Below are positions 19,772-40,858 of a stretch of 40,858 bases of DNA, one piece after another. Origin of the DNA: Candidatus Kapaibacterium sp. (GTDB lineage: Bacteria; Bacteroidota; Ignavibacteria; Kapaibacteriales; Kapaibacteriaceae); assembly GCA_018882585.1 (NCBI GenBank), contig VFFB01000008.1, forward strand, positions 1-40,858, written 5' to 3'. The translations under genes and the position numbers were made by a program. Every line of letters begins with the position of its first letter. Within the stretch, counting starts at the first letter, position 1. Below the pieces are notes generated by a model. It was not told the DNA's origin. It made no database searches and saw nothing but the letters and a program-made list of their open reading frames with translations.

Positions 19772-21322
19772 ATGGCACTACTTGACGCTTATACAGGTCC
19801 ATGGACCGAGGCCGAAGCGGCCCATCTGCTGCGGCGGACGACTTTTGGATGCAATCCGCAGCAGACTGCGCAGGCCGCATCGCTTGGCCTTACAGCAACG
19901 CTCGACGCGTTGCTGAAGGTACAGCCCGCGCCCGAGCCACCGGTCGATCCAACGACGGGCAAGACGTTCGTGACGGGTACGATCGATCTGACCGGAGGAA
20001 ATCCCGGCAGGTATAGGGCCTACGTCAAAGCCTGGTGGGCCGACCTGATGGCAACGCAGCCGCCGTCGATCACCGAGAAGTTGACGCTGTTCTGGATGAA
20101 TCACTTCGTGGTGGAAGCGACCGCGGTCGGACATCCGCAGATCCTGTTTACCTACCTGGCCTACATGCGGAGCAATGCCCTGGGCAATTTCAAGGGCATG
20201 GCTCGGCAGGTGACCATCGAGCCGGCTATGCTGCGCTACCTGAATGGCAACACGAACACCAAGGGCAATGCCAACGAGAACTATGCCCGCGAACTGCAGG
20301 AACTGTTTACCATCGGCAAAGGCCCCGAGCGCGCGTCGGGTGACTACACGACGTACACCGAGCGCGATGTTCGCGAGGCCGCCAGGGTCCTGACGGGATG
20401 GCGTGACGCGCGGTTGACGTTGCAGACAACGTTTCTTGCAACGCAGCACGACACAGGCGACAAACAGTTTTCGGCCTCCTACGGCAATCGCATCATCAAG
20501 GGCCGCTCCGGTGCTGACGCCGGCAACGCAGAACTCGACGAACTGATCGCAATGATCTTCGATCAGCAGGCGACGCGGTATACCATCGTTCGGAAACTCT
20601 ACCGGTGGTTCGTCGACTGTGACATTACGCCCGACATTGAGCAGAAGGTTATCGAGCCTCTTGGCGATCTCCTGCACGCCTCGGATTGGAACGTCACTCC
20701 CGTGCTGCGAAAGCTCCTGATGTCGCGCCACTTCTTCAGCGACGACATCCGCGGCGCCCAGTTGAAATCGCCGGCTGATTTCGTCATCGGCTTGCTGCGA
20801 AGCATCAGCTATCAAGCGCCAACCGACGTGCAGCAGCGCTATGCGGCCGGCACCAGTGTTGCCAACACGCTCACAGCACTCCAAATGGATCTGTGCGAGC
20901 CCCCAAGTGTTGCTGGCTATGATGCGACCTATCAGGGTCCCGACTACGACCGTTTGTGGCTGAATACGGCAACGCTGCCATTGCGGAACGGTGCTACCGA
21001 CGTCATCATCTACGGTCAGCGCGGTCGCGGTGGCATCTTCGACAGTATCGCCTACATCAAGAGCATTCCCAATGCATCCGACGCCTACGCATTGGTCGAT
21101 ACCGTCGTACAGCGCCTGTTTACCGTGCCCGTGAGCACCGATATGCGCAAGACACTCGTGATCGACGTGCTGCAGCAGGGTGGACGTGACTACGAATGGA
21201 CCCAGCAATGGGAGGAGTTTCTTGCCAACGAGCAAAACGTTGCCAACCGCAATGCTGTCAAAGCGAAACTGGACCTGTTCTTCCGATACATTTTCCGCAT
21301 GGCCGAGTTTCAACTGCTATGA
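19772..21322 (+). CDS. DUF1800 family protein
   Basis: EAEAAHLLRRTTFGCNPQQ, EKLTLFWMNHFVVE, NENYARELQELFTIG and EAARVLTGW are DUF1800 hallmarks. Confidence 0.93.
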   Translation: MALLDAYTGPWTEAEAAHLLRRTTFGCNPQQTAQAASLGLTATLDALLKVQPAPEPPVDPTTGKTFVTGTIDLTGGNPGRYRAYVKAWWADLMATQPPSITEKLTLFWMNHFVVEATAVGHPQILFTYLAYMRSNALGNFKGMARQVTIEPAMLRYLNGNTNTKGNANENYARELQELFTIGKGPERASGDYTTYTERDVREAARVLTGWRDARLTLQTTFLATQHDTGDKQFSASYGNRIIKGRSGADAGNAELDELIAMIFDQQATRYTIVRKLYRWFVDCDITPDIEQKVIEPLGDLLHASDWNVTPVLRKLLMSRHFFSDDIRGAQLKSPADFVIGLLRSISYQAPTDVQQRYAAGTSVANTLTALQMDLCEPPSVAGYDATYQGPDYDRLWLNTATLPLRNGATDVIIYGQRGRGGIFDSIAYIKSIPNASDAYALVDTVVQRLFTVPVSTDMRKTLVIDVLQQGGRDYEWTQQWEEFLANEQNVANRNAVKAKLDLFFRYIFRMAEFQLL

Positions 21323-21333
21323 GGGACACTACC

Positions 21334-22911
21334 ATGGACCGTCGCCGTTTTCTCCTTCGTACCTCCGGAGCCGTCTCGCTGCCCCTTGTCCTGAATGGCC
21401 TTCCCCTGAAGGCATTTGATGGACCCCTGCTGCAGGACATGTTCAACACGACCGAAGCATCGGATCGTGTGCTGGTGCTGATACAGCTGAACGGAGGCAA
21501 CGATGGTATCAATACCGTCCTGCCGCTGGACCAGTACGACGAGTTGATGAAGGTGCGTGCCAACATCGCCATCGACGAAGCGAAGGCCCTGAAGCTTACC
21601 AACAAGATCGGCCTGCACCCCATGATGACGGGCGTGCGCGACCTGTACACCGAGCAGAAGGTCGGCGTCATCGCCGGCGTTGGCTATCCCAACCCCAACC
21701 TGTCGCACTTCCGCTCGACGGATATCTGGATGACGGCAAGTGCGTCGAACGAGGTGATCTCGACCGGCTGGCTAGGTCGCTACCTGCATCGCGACTATCC
21801 GAACTATCCGGAAGGGTATCCGAACCAGACGATGCCCGACCCGATCGCCATCCAGATGTCGGCCGTGGTCTCTCTGGCCCTTACCGGACAGGATCAACAT
21901 TCGCTGGGCACGGCACTGCAGGATCCCGAGACATTTTATCAACTCGTCTCAGGTACGACATCAGGGGGCGGTGATCTGCCCTCGCAGAAGAACGCACGCG
22001 ACAACGTCATGTATGTGCGTGGTGTCCAAGCAAAGTCGATGTCGTATTCGACGGTCATCAAGGCTGCTGCCGATAAGGCGAACAACATTGGGACGTATCC
22101 GACGGGCAACAGGTTGGCCGACCAGCTGAAGGTCGTGGCTCGACTTGTGGCCGGCGGACTGAAGACGCGGGTCTATGTGGTGTCGCTTGGCGGTTTTGAT
22201 ACGCATGCCGGACAGGTGGTTGACGGTGATACGGCCACGGGCGGGCATGCCAACTTGCTGCAGCAACTTTCGGACGCCGTGATGGCCTTTCAGCGAGACC
22301 TGGAAGCCTTGAAGTGCGATAGCCGTGTGCTGTCGATGACGTTCTCGGAGTTTGGTCGTCGCGTTGCTTCAAACCTCAGTCTGGGTACCGATCACGGCAC
22401 GTCAGCACCGATGTTCATCTTCGGGACGCCGGCGCAGGACGGAGTACGCGGGCCGTATCCAAGTTTGACCGACCTTGACAACGGCAACCTGAAGATGAAC
22501 GTCGACTTCAGGGCTGTCTACGCATCAGTACTGCAGCAATGGTTTGGCGCCGACGCTGCCGTGCTCCGAGAAGTGCTTTTCAACGACTTCACCACGATAC
22601 CAGTGGTCAAGAACAGACCGACGTCAGTGTCCGACAACATCACCGATGCAGGCTGCACGCTGTTTCCCATCGCCCCCAATCCCGTTATTGGTCAGGCATT
22701 GATCAGATATCAGCTTGACCGTCCGCGCACCGTTCATCTTGGCGTCTATGACGCATTGGGGTTCCATGTGGCGACGCTGGCCAATGGTCTGGTCGATGCG
22801 GGTTCGCATGATGCGGTGTTTGCCGCTGGCGGCATGCCGTCGGGAACGTACTACGTGCAACTACGTCGCGACGACGTGCGGCTCGTGCAGCCGATCGTTG
22901 TCATGCGCTGA
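21334..22911 (+). CDS. DUF1501 family protein with twin-arginine-like leader and sorting-domain-like C-terminus
   Basis: MDRRRFLLRTSGAVSLPLVLNG leader; VLVLIQLNGGNDGINTVLPLDQYDEL; MTFSEFGRRVASNLSLGTDHGTSAPMFIFG; C-terminus VYDALGFHVATLANGLVDAG...GGMPSGTYYVQLRRDDVRLVQPIVVMR. Confidence 0.92.
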   Translation: MDRRRFLLRTSGAVSLPLVLNGLPLKAFDGPLLQDMFNTTEASDRVLVLIQLNGGNDGINTVLPLDQYDELMKVRANIAIDEAKALKLTNKIGLHPMMTGVRDLYTEQKVGVIAGVGYPNPNLSHFRSTDIWMTASASNEVISTGWLGRYLHRDYPNYPEGYPNQTMPDPIAIQMSAVVSLALTGQDQHSLGTALQDPETFYQLVSGTTSGGGDLPSQKNARDNVMYVRGVQAKSMSYSTVIKAAADKANNIGTYPTGNRLADQLKVVARLVAGGLKTRVYVVSLGGFDTHAGQVVDGDTATGGHANLLQQLSDAVMAFQRDLEALKCDSRVLSMTFSEFGRRVASNLSLGTDHGTSAPMFIFGTPAQDGVRGPYPSLTDLDNGNLKMNVDFRAVYASVLQQWFGADAAVLREVLFNDFTTIPVVKNRPTSVSDNITDAGCTLFPIAPNPVIGQALIRYQLDRPRTVHLGVYDALGFHVATLANGLVDAGSHDAVFAAGGMPSGTYYVQLRRDDVRLVQPIVVMR

Positions 22912-36350: not shown

Positions 36351-36662
36351 TTGATGCAACGATCCCTACCAATGGCCAAGTTTTTGGACAGTTCTTGCCA
36401 ATGCAGGGGTCTGGTGCCTGCTTCTTGGCTTGCGCGGGGCAACGTCGATCGTGTCCACGGTGGAATATCGTCCTCCGTGCGCTGCACACAACAAGGTCGT
36501 GCGACCGACGTCGCCCTGTAGCGTCGGTGCGGCAACGTTCCACAACGGCGTCCTGCAAGGCTTTTTTTCGTTGGAGAACTGTCCCGATTGCGATAAATTG
36601 AGAGCCGTCCGCCCTCTTCCGTGGCTGACCCTGTTTGAACACCCAATATGTCAGGTGAACCA

Positions 36663-37058
36663 ATGACAATCCGCAATTTCATCGTGTCTGCTGCGCTGTT
36701 GTTTGGCGCAATGGCTACCGTGTCGTTCGCCGGTGGCAACTGTGACGAGAAGGCCGCCAAGACCTCGGCAAAGGGCTCGTGCTGCTCCTCGACGGCCAAG
36801 GCCGTCAAGGCCACGAACATGGATGCCGATCACTGTGCAACGACGAAGTCCACTTCGGCAAAGAGCTGTGACATGACAAAGGATGCAGCCTCATGCACGA
36901 CGAAGTCGACGACGGCAACGGCCACGACTTCGTTCAAAACGGTCAAGGCCACAGGCAATGAAGGCAGCTGCTGCTCTATGAAGGGCAAGGGCGCCAAGAT
37001 GACGTCTGCTGACCAGGTAGCCCCCAAGGCTGAACAGGCAGCGACTCCCGAGAAGTAA
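36663..37058 (+). CDS. Small exported Cys/Thr/Lys-rich low-complexity protein
   Basis: Signal peptide MTIRNFIVSAALLFGAMATVSFAG, then a repetitive body with GSCCSS, DHCATTKS, SCDMTK, SCTTKS and GSCCSM. Confidence 0.7.
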   Translation: MTIRNFIVSAALLFGAMATVSFAGGNCDEKAAKTSAKGSCCSSTAKAVKATNMDADHCATTKSTSAKSCDMTKDAASCTTKSTTATATTSFKTVKATGNEGSCCSMKGKGAKMTSADQVAPKAEQAATPEK

Positions 37059-37177
37059 ATCACCACGACAGCACTATGCATTGTCAGGCCTGCCCGAGGC
37101 AAGCTTGACAATGATGCGAAACCAGGGTTGCACCTGGAACACTAGAGCACACACCAGACCAGAGGCCGGAGGAAGCC

Positions 37178-39286
37178 ATGTCTAAGGGCGGAGCGGGAAA
37201 AGTTTATTTCGTGCTGTACCTCGCCGTTATTCTCGAACTCCTGATCATTATCGTGGAGCGAGATGAGGCCGAGGAGCATCTGATTCGGAAACAAAAAGAA
37301 GCCGAAGAAATCGTCGAGGCCGTGATGGCCCAGCTCAATACGGGCTCGGGCTCGAGTGGCGTTAATGCCTTGCCACAGGACGAGATCACGTTGCTGGACC
37401 CGCGCACGATTCAGGGTGTGGCCGAAAAGGATAAGCCGAAAGATGAGCGCACATATCAGATCCGGGTATCGACAGTGCGCGTGAAGGACATCCTTGGCGA
37501 TGCCTTGCCGGACGATCCTGACAACAAGCGTCGGCGTATTGAGGAGATCATCCGTCTGTTCAACGTTTCGAACCTGAACTTGGTTGACAGCGTCAACCAA
37601 TCAAGCATGGTCGAGAACTTGACGCTTGAACTGAAGCAGGAATGGCTCAAAACCAAGGCAGACGAAATCGTGAGGAAAATGGGTGAGCGTAATACGATCA
37701 CCGATGTTCCCGAGTTCAAAGATGGACTTGGTTTCCTGAAGGCAATCACGCCCGATTCCGTTGACTTTACCTCCAATACCGATCTTGCCACCTTCCGATT
37801 CAGTCCGGCACTCACGCTGGCTGATAAGAATCAGTTCGAGGGTGGTATCAAGGTATTCGAGTATACCTTCAAGCAGAAAAACGCCGGTCTATACAAGGTG
37901 ATGTTGCAGTCGAAGACCAACAACATCATCGGTGTGACGGGACTTGACAAGAAGAACAACGAATCGGATGAAGACGTTGTCAGCATCGGTACGATTCAGC
38001 TGACGCGCCGTCAACTTTCAAAGGTTGAAGCACGACTTCGTTCTACACTCGGTGGTACCGTCGAAGCTCTTTGCGACAAGTTTCAGACGTCGTCAGACTA
38101 CAAGTATCCGCAGTTCAGTGCAGACCTCGAGGCAGCACTGGACAAGATCAACCACGAGGACATCGGCCTTCCTTCCAAGTCTGATAAGATTCGTCGCGGT
38201 GAACTTCTGAAGAACATTACCGTGCTGCTGCACGGTGATGCTAACCAGATGGAGCAGAACAACCCGACGTTCCAGTTCGAGATCAATGTCAAGAAGCCGA
38301 ACATTGCAACGGCCGATCCGTGTATCGCGGACCTTGTGAAGTCGCAGCGCGTGCTGTCGGGCGTACGCAAGATCGTGATCCCTCTGACGGTCAACAACTT
38401 CCGCAATGACGTGCCACAGGTAACGATCACGCCAAGCGACGCTACGGTCAAAGTTGTCCCGATGGGCTCGGGAACAGCTGGCGGCGGCGGGCTACGTAAC
38501 CAACCCTATGAGATTCACATTGAAGGAGCTTCGGCGATCGGAGAGCGAAAAGACTACACGGTTAAGGTCACGAATTTGAAGATGTGTGACGACACAGACC
38601 CGATTTCAACCGTGTCGGTTTTCCCGTCTGACCTATCAAACAAATCTACAATTGATGGTATCCTGGAAAAGCGTGTTTCGTACGGAAAAATGGTTAAGCT
38701 ACCCATTTATCCATCTTCGGGCGGTGATATACCAGCGAATCAGTTCGAACTCTCTTACACCCTCGACGGCCAGGAGATAGCATTTGCAGGCACAAATCCA
38801 CTGTTGATTACAGTCCCGTGTGTGCCTAAGAATTTTAGCACATTGAAGGCGTCGGTGAAGTGGATATACAAACCTGTTCCGAACTACAAGGAAGAGGTTG
38901 TTATCTACGAGCGCACGGTAAACCAAGCAAAGCAGTCACCTCCTGAAATTCTACTGGCAAATACCAGTGAGATGCCATTTGAATCGAAAACGATGAGGCT
39001 AGTCATTAGTGGAGTGGAAGTCCTTCCTCCGGTTGTCGACTGTAATGTGAATGCTCAGGATAAAGATGTCAAAGTGGACGTTAAGCCTGATAAACCCAGT
39101 ATTGGAAAATATCAGGTACTTGCATCTATTGAGCCAGAAGGAACAGGTAAATACAAGATTATTGTTCAGTTGAAGGGCCCAAGAACGAAATTCGACGGTG
39201 AGACCATCGAGCTGACTGTTTCCGCTTCGATCGGGGGAGTGCTCATAACCGAAACGAAGACAGTAGCAATCCCTGCATTCCGCTGA
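37178..39286 (+). CDS. Single-pass membrane-anchored periplasmic protein, GldM-like in architecture
   Basis: Short N-terminal cytoplasmic stub, one TM helix VYFVLYLAVILELLIIIV with an embedded Glu, then about 670 aa predicted periplasmic with beta-rich repeats; no confident family match. Confidence 0.7.
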   Translation: MSKGGAGKVYFVLYLAVILELLIIIVERDEAEEHLIRKQKEAEEIVEAVMAQLNTGSGSSGVNALPQDEITLLDPRTIQGVAEKDKPKDERTYQIRVSTVRVKDILGDALPDDPDNKRRRIEEIIRLFNVSNLNLVDSVNQSSMVENLTLELKQEWLKTKADEIVRKMGERNTITDVPEFKDGLGFLKAITPDSVDFTSNTDLATFRFSPALTLADKNQFEGGIKVFEYTFKQKNAGLYKVMLQSKTNNIIGVTGLDKKNNESDEDVVSIGTIQLTRRQLSKVEARLRSTLGGTVEALCDKFQTSSDYKYPQFSADLEAALDKINHEDIGLPSKSDKIRRGELLKNITVLLHGDANQMEQNNPTFQFEINVKKPNIATADPCIADLVKSQRVLSGVRKIVIPLTVNNFRNDVPQVTITPSDATVKVVPMGSGTAGGGGLRNQPYEIHIEGASAIGERKDYTVKVTNLKMCDDTDPISTVSVFPSDLSNKSTIDGILEKRVSYGKMVKLPIYPSSGGDIPANQFELSYTLDGQEIAFAGTNPLLITVPCVPKNFSTLKASVKWIYKPVPNYKEEVVIYERTVNQAKQSPPEILLANTSEMPFESKTMRLVISGVEVLPPVVDCNVNAQDKDVKVDVKPDKPSIGKYQVLASIEPEGTGKYKIIVQLKGPRTKFDGETIELTVSASIGGVLITETKTVAIPAFR

Positions 39287-39297
39287 GAACACAATCC

Positions 39298-40858
39298 ATG
39301 AGAACATCTGTAATGAAGCACCGAATGATCCGAGCCGTAACCCTGACCGTTGTCACGCTATTTGCGTTGCCAACGATTGGTCAAACGGATGGGGCGTACG
39401 TCGGCAAGTTCAAAAACGTCCTTCGATCACTATCGAATTACCGCTATGGTGACATCTCGGTGTTTCGAATTGAGGGCCAATTGTTTGCCGATCTTCAACG
39501 TTACTTGAATCCCCCACCGGTGGATAAAACAGGGTCGATCGAAGCGCTAACCAAAAAAGACGGCAAGCTTGTAACCGCAATTCAAAAGTCGGTTAAAAGA
39601 TCGCAGAATTATGATAAAATCGTGCAGGACCTTGAGGAGAGAGAGGGGTACTCAGCGGATGACCTGGCCGATCGCGACGTGCAGAACGTCATTCAGTATT
39701 ATCTCGATGAGCGTCAGTACCAAAGCGAACTCTTTACAGGTGCGTACATCGTCACATCGAAGTACCAGCGTGGCGAAACAGGCGACGATCTTGTGATCAT
39801 CGGTTTGATGAAGACACGCGTGAAGCCGGCCGGCAACACTATCCGCGATCTGCGAGGCGTGAACCCAGGCGATGTGATTACGCGATATGAGCTTACAAAG
39901 CTGGACCCCCCCCCGTCATCTTCGAAAGAATATGCTGACAAAATGCAGGGCTATCTTCGCGACCAGGTGATTCAGAATAACGTCACAAACGTTACGCTTG
40001 AAGCACAAGGCATCGACGACCCAGATACACGGTTTGTACGTCCTGTGTTCGGTAATGCTGTTCAAGTTTCGGAAGACGACGTACAGCAGTTCATCAAGAT
40101 CACGAACGGTATTCCCGTTGCGTATACTGGTCCGAATGAACTAACGGTGTCAGCCGCTGATCTTATTTCGTATCGCCGTTACAAGGCTGACCCGACGACA
40201 AAGCTGGTCACGTCCATTGAAAAGGATTCAGCCGGTAACGACGTTGAGGTTGAGAAGGAAGTTGTGACCTACAACAGTCGCCTTCCCCAGTACGGTGGTG
40301 AGATCCGTTATGGCCTCGAGGACGTTAATTATCCTTCGCTCTGGAGTGAGCGGATGACCTTAAACGCAGTATGGAGCCAGGCTCGTCTCGGCGTGATTCT
40401 TCCCACAAACGGTTGGTCTTCGCTGGCATCGTCGTTCGGTAACGAGCGCACGATGACTACAGCGGGCTTCGGTGTGAATACAAACATCGAAGTACCGATC
40501 AAGCTTATCGCGGAATCTGGTGTGTTCAACTTTGCAGCCAGTTACGTGTTCGACGATGCTCGCTCGACAAGCCACAAGCGTTTCGATACATCGGTTCGTC
40601 GTTCGTTTGACCACCTCATTCGCTTTCACGCCTCAGCGCAATACACGTTTGCCGTTCGCATCGATGAGTCGAATCTATTCCGTCTGCGCCTTGGTGGTAC
40701 GGGATATTCGATGGAGCGTTGGTTTGACCGTGATTCTATTTCCACAACTGGAGATACGGTGTCGAACTTCTCGAAGTTTGACAGCGAATTCATTGGTGGA
40801 ATTTCAGGTAAGATCGAATTCATGAATACAAGCTGGTCGACACCGCTGGGTGCATCGC
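39298..40858 (+). CDS. Outer-membrane beta-barrel-type protein, 3'-truncated by the window edge (not in the supplied ORF track)
   Basis: Manual translation from ATG at 39298 (MRTSVMKHRMIRAVTLTVVTLFALPTIGQTDGAYVGKFKNVLRSL...) stays open through 40858. Signal peptide; C-terminal half has alternating barrel-like strands (RMTLNAVWSQARLGVILP, GVFNFAASYVFDDA, IRFHASAQYTFAVRI). Confidence 0.8.
   Translation, partial: MRTSVMKHRMIRAVTLTVVTLFALPTIGQTDGAYVGKFKNVLRSLSNYRYGDISVFRIEGQLFADLQRYLNPPPVDKTGSIEALTKKDGKLVTAIQKSVKRSQNYDKIVQDLEEREGYSADDLADRDVQNVIQYYLDERQYQSELFTGAYIVTSKYQRGETGDDLVIIGLMKTRVKPAGNTIRDLRGVNPGDVITRYELTKLDPPPSSSKEYADKMQGYLRDQVIQNNVTNVTLEAQGIDDPDTRFVRPVFGNAVQVSEDDVQQFIKITNGIPVAYTGPNELTVSAADLISYRRYKADPTTKLVTSIEKDSAGNDVEVEKEVVTYNSRLPQYGGEIRYGLEDVNYPSLWSERMTLNAVWSQARLGVILPTNGWSSLASSFGNERTMTTAGFGVNTNIEVPIKLIAESGVFNFAASYVFDDARSTSHKRFDTSVRRSFDHLIRFHASAQYTFAVRIDESNLFRLRLGGTGYSMERWFDRDSISTTGDTVSNFSKFDSEFIGGISGKIEFMNTSWSTPLGAS

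Follow-up and report, generated by a model that had tools for sequence, protein, structure and literature searches.

The closest described system to the locus reported here is the GldLM proton motor of the T9SS. In this motor two GldM helices are located within a GldL pentamer, and the periplasmic shaft is thought to meet a ring of GldK and GldN (PMC9389320, PMC8986121). The glutamate E49 of GldL is strictly conserved and is required for gliding as well as for secretion of the adhesin SprB; the conserved E31 of GldM is found near the TM helix, and its replacement was without effect on gliding (PMC8986121). A survey from 2016 based on GldKLMN and SprA profiles reported the T9SS in Bacteroidetes only (PMC4793230).

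We analysed a complete contig of 40,858 bases (G000:C158, in the following called the window) from a genome of the Kapabacteria/Ignavibacteria lineage. An initial annotation had read its last two genes as a GldM-like anchored protein and an outer-membrane barrel, belonging either to a divergent T9SS branch or to a separate trans-envelope system. The results favour the divergent T9SS branch: the SprA translocon, cargo signals, co-occurring L proteins and a chain of similarity to GldM all point this way. With a probability of roughly 0.78 the first protein, M, serves a highly diverged proton motor of the GldLM type (T9SS) as its axle and periplasmic shaft. The features of the locus are as follows.

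36648..37058, + strand: small Cys/Thr-rich signal-peptide protein (ORF; cluster c7 in 16 loci)
37168..37172, + strand: Shine-Dalgarno-like GGAGG of M (read from the sequence)
37178..39286, + strand: M, putative GldM-like single-TM axle and periplasmic shaft protein, 702 aa (ORF, homologues, model, profile comparisons)
37178..37279, + strand: ultra-conserved N-terminal segment of M, proposed motor segment, residues 1-34, MSKGGAGKVYFVLYLAVILELLIIIVERDEAEEH (homologue alignment)
37235-37237, + strand: codon of the intramembrane Glu20 of M (read from the sequence)
39298..40858, + strand: B, signal-peptide protein with an N-terminal periplasmic domain and a modelled C-terminal outer-membrane beta-barrel (ORF, model of a relative)
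40138..40858, + strand: barrel part of B, approximate (alignment to the model of the relative)

The ORF of M begins with ATG, and residues 9-26 (VYFVLYLAVILELLIIIV) constitute its sole TM segment. In the AlphaFold model residues 5-53 form a continuous helix, followed by an alpha/beta region, helices and beta domains up to residue 698; with a mean pLDDT of 82 and a pTM of 0.47 the placement of these domains relative to each other is uncertain. Sequence and model thus agree with the earlier description of a 702-aa protein with one N-terminal TM helix and a long periplasmic region, which is multi-domain and beta-rich. Foldseek searches with the model returned generic Ig/cadherin folds, with GldM missing from the top 50. 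The structural comparison with GldM, which the initial annotation had suggested as a check, is therefore neutral, yielding only generic Ig-like matches. M had no NCBIfam match, and PDB sequence searches gave nothing useful. Pfam matches to Ribophorin and Y_Y_Y were rejected, being below cut-off and not common to the homologues. Stand-alone ORFs of 178-318 aa that match the C-terminal domain of M occur in related genomes (L141:8728-9675 in G004:C2; others in G003:C7 and G016:C2); in the canonical-GldM genome G176 similar proteins consist of the GldM C-terminus only.

M is present in 21 of 23 genomes of its family and in 55 of 119 genomes of the class. The named homologues come under the labels Candidatus Kapaibacterium, Ignavibacteria, Chlorobiota or unplaced Bacteroidota, a few of the bins being likely mislabelled, and the relatives compared are mostly metagenome bins. 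Within the homologue alignment residues 1-34 have a mean identity of 95.7%, and the protein past residue 70 one of 24-26%; the named loci had been retrieved with exact peptides from residues 1-16, so that the conservation there is biased. In the family set, which was retrieved without exact peptides, residues 1-33 are invariant too. Such near-invariance within a fast-evolving protein would fit a helix enclosed by a conserved ring. E20, E27, R28 and D29 each occur in 50 of 50 homologues; the buried glutamate noted earlier in the TM helix is E20. It is not the E31 of the GldM literature. E27, located right behind the helix, more likely corresponds to E31, and for this reason Glu20 appears to be an extra feature of M.

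B starts 11 bp past the stop codon of M; the contig end leaves 520 aa of it, against 540-620 aa in most relatives. In the model of a full-length relative, 77% identical to B, the N-terminal domain is helical/mixed and a beta-barrel makes up the C-terminal part (pLDDT 85.5); the best Foldseek matches were porins and AlgE (E about 5e-4). The signal peptide and the barrel-like C-terminal half previously attributed to the second protein are thus borne out. The M-B pair is the opening of a four-gene operon, M-B-C-D, that is conserved in relatives; the module is real but had been taken for one of two genes. In the family neighbourhoods (19 of the genomes) the order M-B-C-D is kept wherever the contig reaches, with few exceptions. 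Of 61 long named loci, 56 have B adjoining M and 52 have all of B, C and D, while the remaining 5 represent a second locus type with an L gene before M and no B after it. Conserved linkage of the pair, on which the earlier reading had been made to depend, was therefore found. Because M occurs in 21 of 23 family genomes and its residues 1-34 are about 96% identical, against about 25% over most of the remainder, the pair lies far beyond chance. C and D are known from relatives, the own operon ending within B at the contig end. C is a second signal-peptide protein, whose barrel-like sequence suggests a second outer-membrane barrel, and D contains VWA and OmpA domains, the latter C-terminal. The small Cys/Thr-rich protein directly upstream of M is a conserved neighbour in the family and at most a putative member of the module.

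In other families of the class a TM-hairpin protein, L, is encoded directly upstream of M (loci L088, L092 and L093 and seven named Kapabacteria/Ignavibacteria loci). In the window no gldL-like gene lies directly upstream of M, in accordance with the initial annotation, which had seen no GldL there; the L partner is unlinked and located on other contigs. The own genome encodes three L proteins, L1 (contig C182), L2 (C46) and L3 (C166), none beside M. An L profile matched in 54 of the 119 class genomes, all of them within the 55 that contain M, and the sole M genome with no detected L is 67% complete. The Fisher value for this co-occurrence, 2e-33, ignores the kinship of the genomes; the pattern spans about 30 genera.

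A TM hairpin is common to the L proteins; its TM1 contains GAA, and its TM2 a glutamate that aligns with E49 of GldL. This residue is Glu59 of the L alignment A10, in which it is invariant; one L3 protein outside that alignment (locus L089) has Gln at the position. L1 and L2 are of the same family as L3 and have two extra N-terminal TM helices as well as an Arg 11 positions past the conserved Gly, where GldL has K27. Downstream of L3 lies another M-like gene, M3, the two abutting or overlapping in most genomes checked. In the own genome the abutting genes of this second GldLM-like pair lie on the minus strand of contig C166 (locus L129:2929-5179); the pair is nearer to canonical GldLM in sequence than the M of the window and is kept across the order and three other families. 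Downstream of L2 (C46, locus L128:4356-10246, minus strand) lie genes for an AAA ATPase (AAA_16) and for a BNR-repeat protein that bears a T9SS sorting tail, and in locus L132 of a relative the ATPase, BNR and sorting parts are fused in one ORF of 1603 aa. In loci L092 and L093 (families f12 and f15) M has just 205-222 aa, and the next genes encode a separate protein of ~365 aa with a signal peptide and further secreted proteins, an arrangement that is possibly a split shaft.

Canonical GldL and GldM sets were gathered from other Bacteroidota and compared with these families using hhalign. Compared directly, window-type M had no significant profile match to GldM: a probability of 0.2% was obtained in one comparison and of 2.1% in a second, the latter exceeding its 60 shuffles but likewise not significant. 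The first six L sequences gave a non-significant 6% against GldL. Significant matches were reached with deeper sequence sets and the paralogues L3 and M3. L3 matched GldL at 93% (E 2.8e-7) with 20 sequences and at 90% with five sequences, where 0 of 200 within-segment column shuffles were as good. M3 matched GldM at 69.5% (E 4.3e-5) over 177 columns, with none of 100 shuffles as good. M3 in turn matched the short M of two other families at 99.3% (E 7e-21; BLASTP down to 1e-19), and short M matched window-type M at 99.9% (E 4e-31), mainly owing to the N-terminal segment. A weak match of GldL to a pooled L set, mostly L1 and L2, was not relied on (shuffles as good: 12 of 150 in local and 1 of 150 in global alignment). 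Judged from these profiles, the L family is homologous to GldL, stepwise through the paralogue L3, and M is homologous to GldM through the intermediates short M and M3, that is, by a chain and by no single test. The remark of the initial annotation that similarity to GldM is not obvious is correct for the direct comparison; homology was found through intermediates.

SprA was found in 118 of the 119 genomes of the class and in the own genome, where the T9SS sorting domain (CTD) yielded 87 matches. The GldM model PF12081 found no match in the own genome, and TIGR03517 had none in the 15 class genomes sampled but exceeded its cut-off in 14 genomes elsewhere in the phylum. The GldL model TIGR03513, searched in all 119 class genomes, had none above cut-off; these searches gave no match in any control genome either and are thus not positive-controlled, GldL elsewhere being confirmed only by position beside GldM genes. 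With regard to the full canonical set that the initial annotation had considered possible elsewhere, the GldL and GldM models find nothing in the own genome. No L or M of the present families was detected in 64 of the 119 class genomes, SprA being found in all but one, and canonical GldL was likewise undetected there at the TIGR03513 cut-off. In three relatives a PorU-type C25 sortase gene comes after the L1 gene, and in the own genome a truncated start of the same sortase family, with a PorU2-like N-terminus (E 1e-14), occupies this place; the PorU matches, though highly significant, do not reach the curated full-length cut-offs. Genes carrying T9SS sorting domains also lie beside L2 and L3. 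Within the window an ORF of 571 aa (21196-22911, + strand) has a weak C-terminal match to the sorting domain (22 and 19.7 bits against a cut-off of 23) and is a possible T9SS cargo.

By analogy with the known motor, L would form the ring and M the axle and shaft. A pair of M helices would be seated inside a ring of L subunits. Protons would pass this ring at the TM2 glutamate, and perhaps also at the intramembrane Glu20 of M, and their flow would turn or re-pack the M dimer. The shaft would carry the motion over the periplasm to the outer-membrane barrels B and C and to the VWA/OmpA protein D, by way of which it would reach the SprA-based T9SS. Because of the gene order, B, C and D are likely, as candidates, to be the outer-membrane and peptidoglycan partners of M, and the M motor probably drives them; its coupling and rotation we infer.

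The presence of three L genes and of both M and M3 in the own genome and order admits a variant of this explanation that is not exclusive with it. Here M and L1 would be a second, specialised GldLM-type motor, e.g. for surface motility or for the assembly of B, C and D, and L3-M3 would power T9SS secretion. The best GldL and GldM matches do come from L3-M3, which is nearer to GldLM in sequence, and the barrels and the VWA-OmpA protein belong to the M operon only. Family f13, however, has a single L and a single M, of the M1 type, together with SprA, such that M1 is unlikely to be merely accessory there. As this family has only the M1/L1 type yet keeps SprA, M1 is likely a T9SS motor in its own right, and the L1 gene moreover adjoins a PorU-type sortase gene. 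We hold the specialised function to be a tentative proposal.

A single-TM axle with a membrane acid, a VWA-OmpA protein and barrels also resembles Tol and Mot layouts, and E20, in the helix of the axle, is reminiscent of the acid found in MotB and ExbD. The locus could on these grounds encode a trans-envelope system coupled to the PMF, of the ExbBD/TolQR/MotAB type and without relation to the T9SS, with B and C as transporters or tethers. We consider this improbable: neither M nor L has an ExbD, MotB, TolR or ExbB Pfam match, the profile links lead to GldL and GldM, and T9SS sortase or sorting-domain genes lie beside all three L genes. A reading without any motor, in which M is a common anchored periplasmic protein of Ig repeats and its neighbour an unrelated porin, would agree with the generic Ig-like and porin-like folds that were all Foldseek returned. 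A TM segment conserved to about 96% within a protein otherwise conserved to about 25% would be unexpected for such a protein, as would the near-strict co-occurrence of M and L and the conserved operon; this reading is disfavoured and very improbable.

A GldLM-type motor at this locus matters in several respects. The class has the SprA translocon almost throughout, and the GldL and GldM profiles do not detect its motor; protein families that have no Pfam or NCBIfam model would obtain candidate names. The diverged axle, ring and outer-membrane partners offer natural variation for testing how GldLM couples proton flow to the outer membrane and for telling its essential partners apart. A search of the open-access literature returned no account of this system; an earlier one may exist. 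A bolder and rather doubtful proposal is that of a distinct class of 5:2-type proton motors in about half of the T9SS-bearing class. It would have an intramembrane acid both in the ring (TM2 Glu of L) and in the axle (Glu20 of M), would drive two barrels and a VWA-OmpA protein instead of a GldK/GldN ring, and would operate beside L3-M3 in the same cell.

Compared by domain content, D shares a C-terminal OmpA domain with PorE and the OmpA-type periplasmic anchors of the T9SS but has a VWA domain in addition; the C-terminal domain of PorE binds a peptidoglycan fragment (PMC7192894). L resembles GldL/PorL (TIGR03513) in its TM hairpin, the GAA in TM1, the basic residue 11 positions past the conserved Gly and the TM2 glutamate equivalent to E49. 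It differs in remaining below the TIGR03513 cut-off, in having up to three paralogues per genome and in the two extra N-terminal TM helices of L1 and L2. With GldM/PorM (TIGR03517, PF12081) M has in common one N-terminal TM helix, several periplasmic beta domains and a partner with a Glu-bearing TM hairpin, and homology between them is detectable through M3. In contrast to GldM, M is unrecognised by the curated GldM models, has 702 aa instead of about 513 and carries Glu20 inside its TM helix, and in place of gldN it is followed by genes for two outer-membrane barrels, one modelled and one predicted, and for a VWA-OmpA protein.
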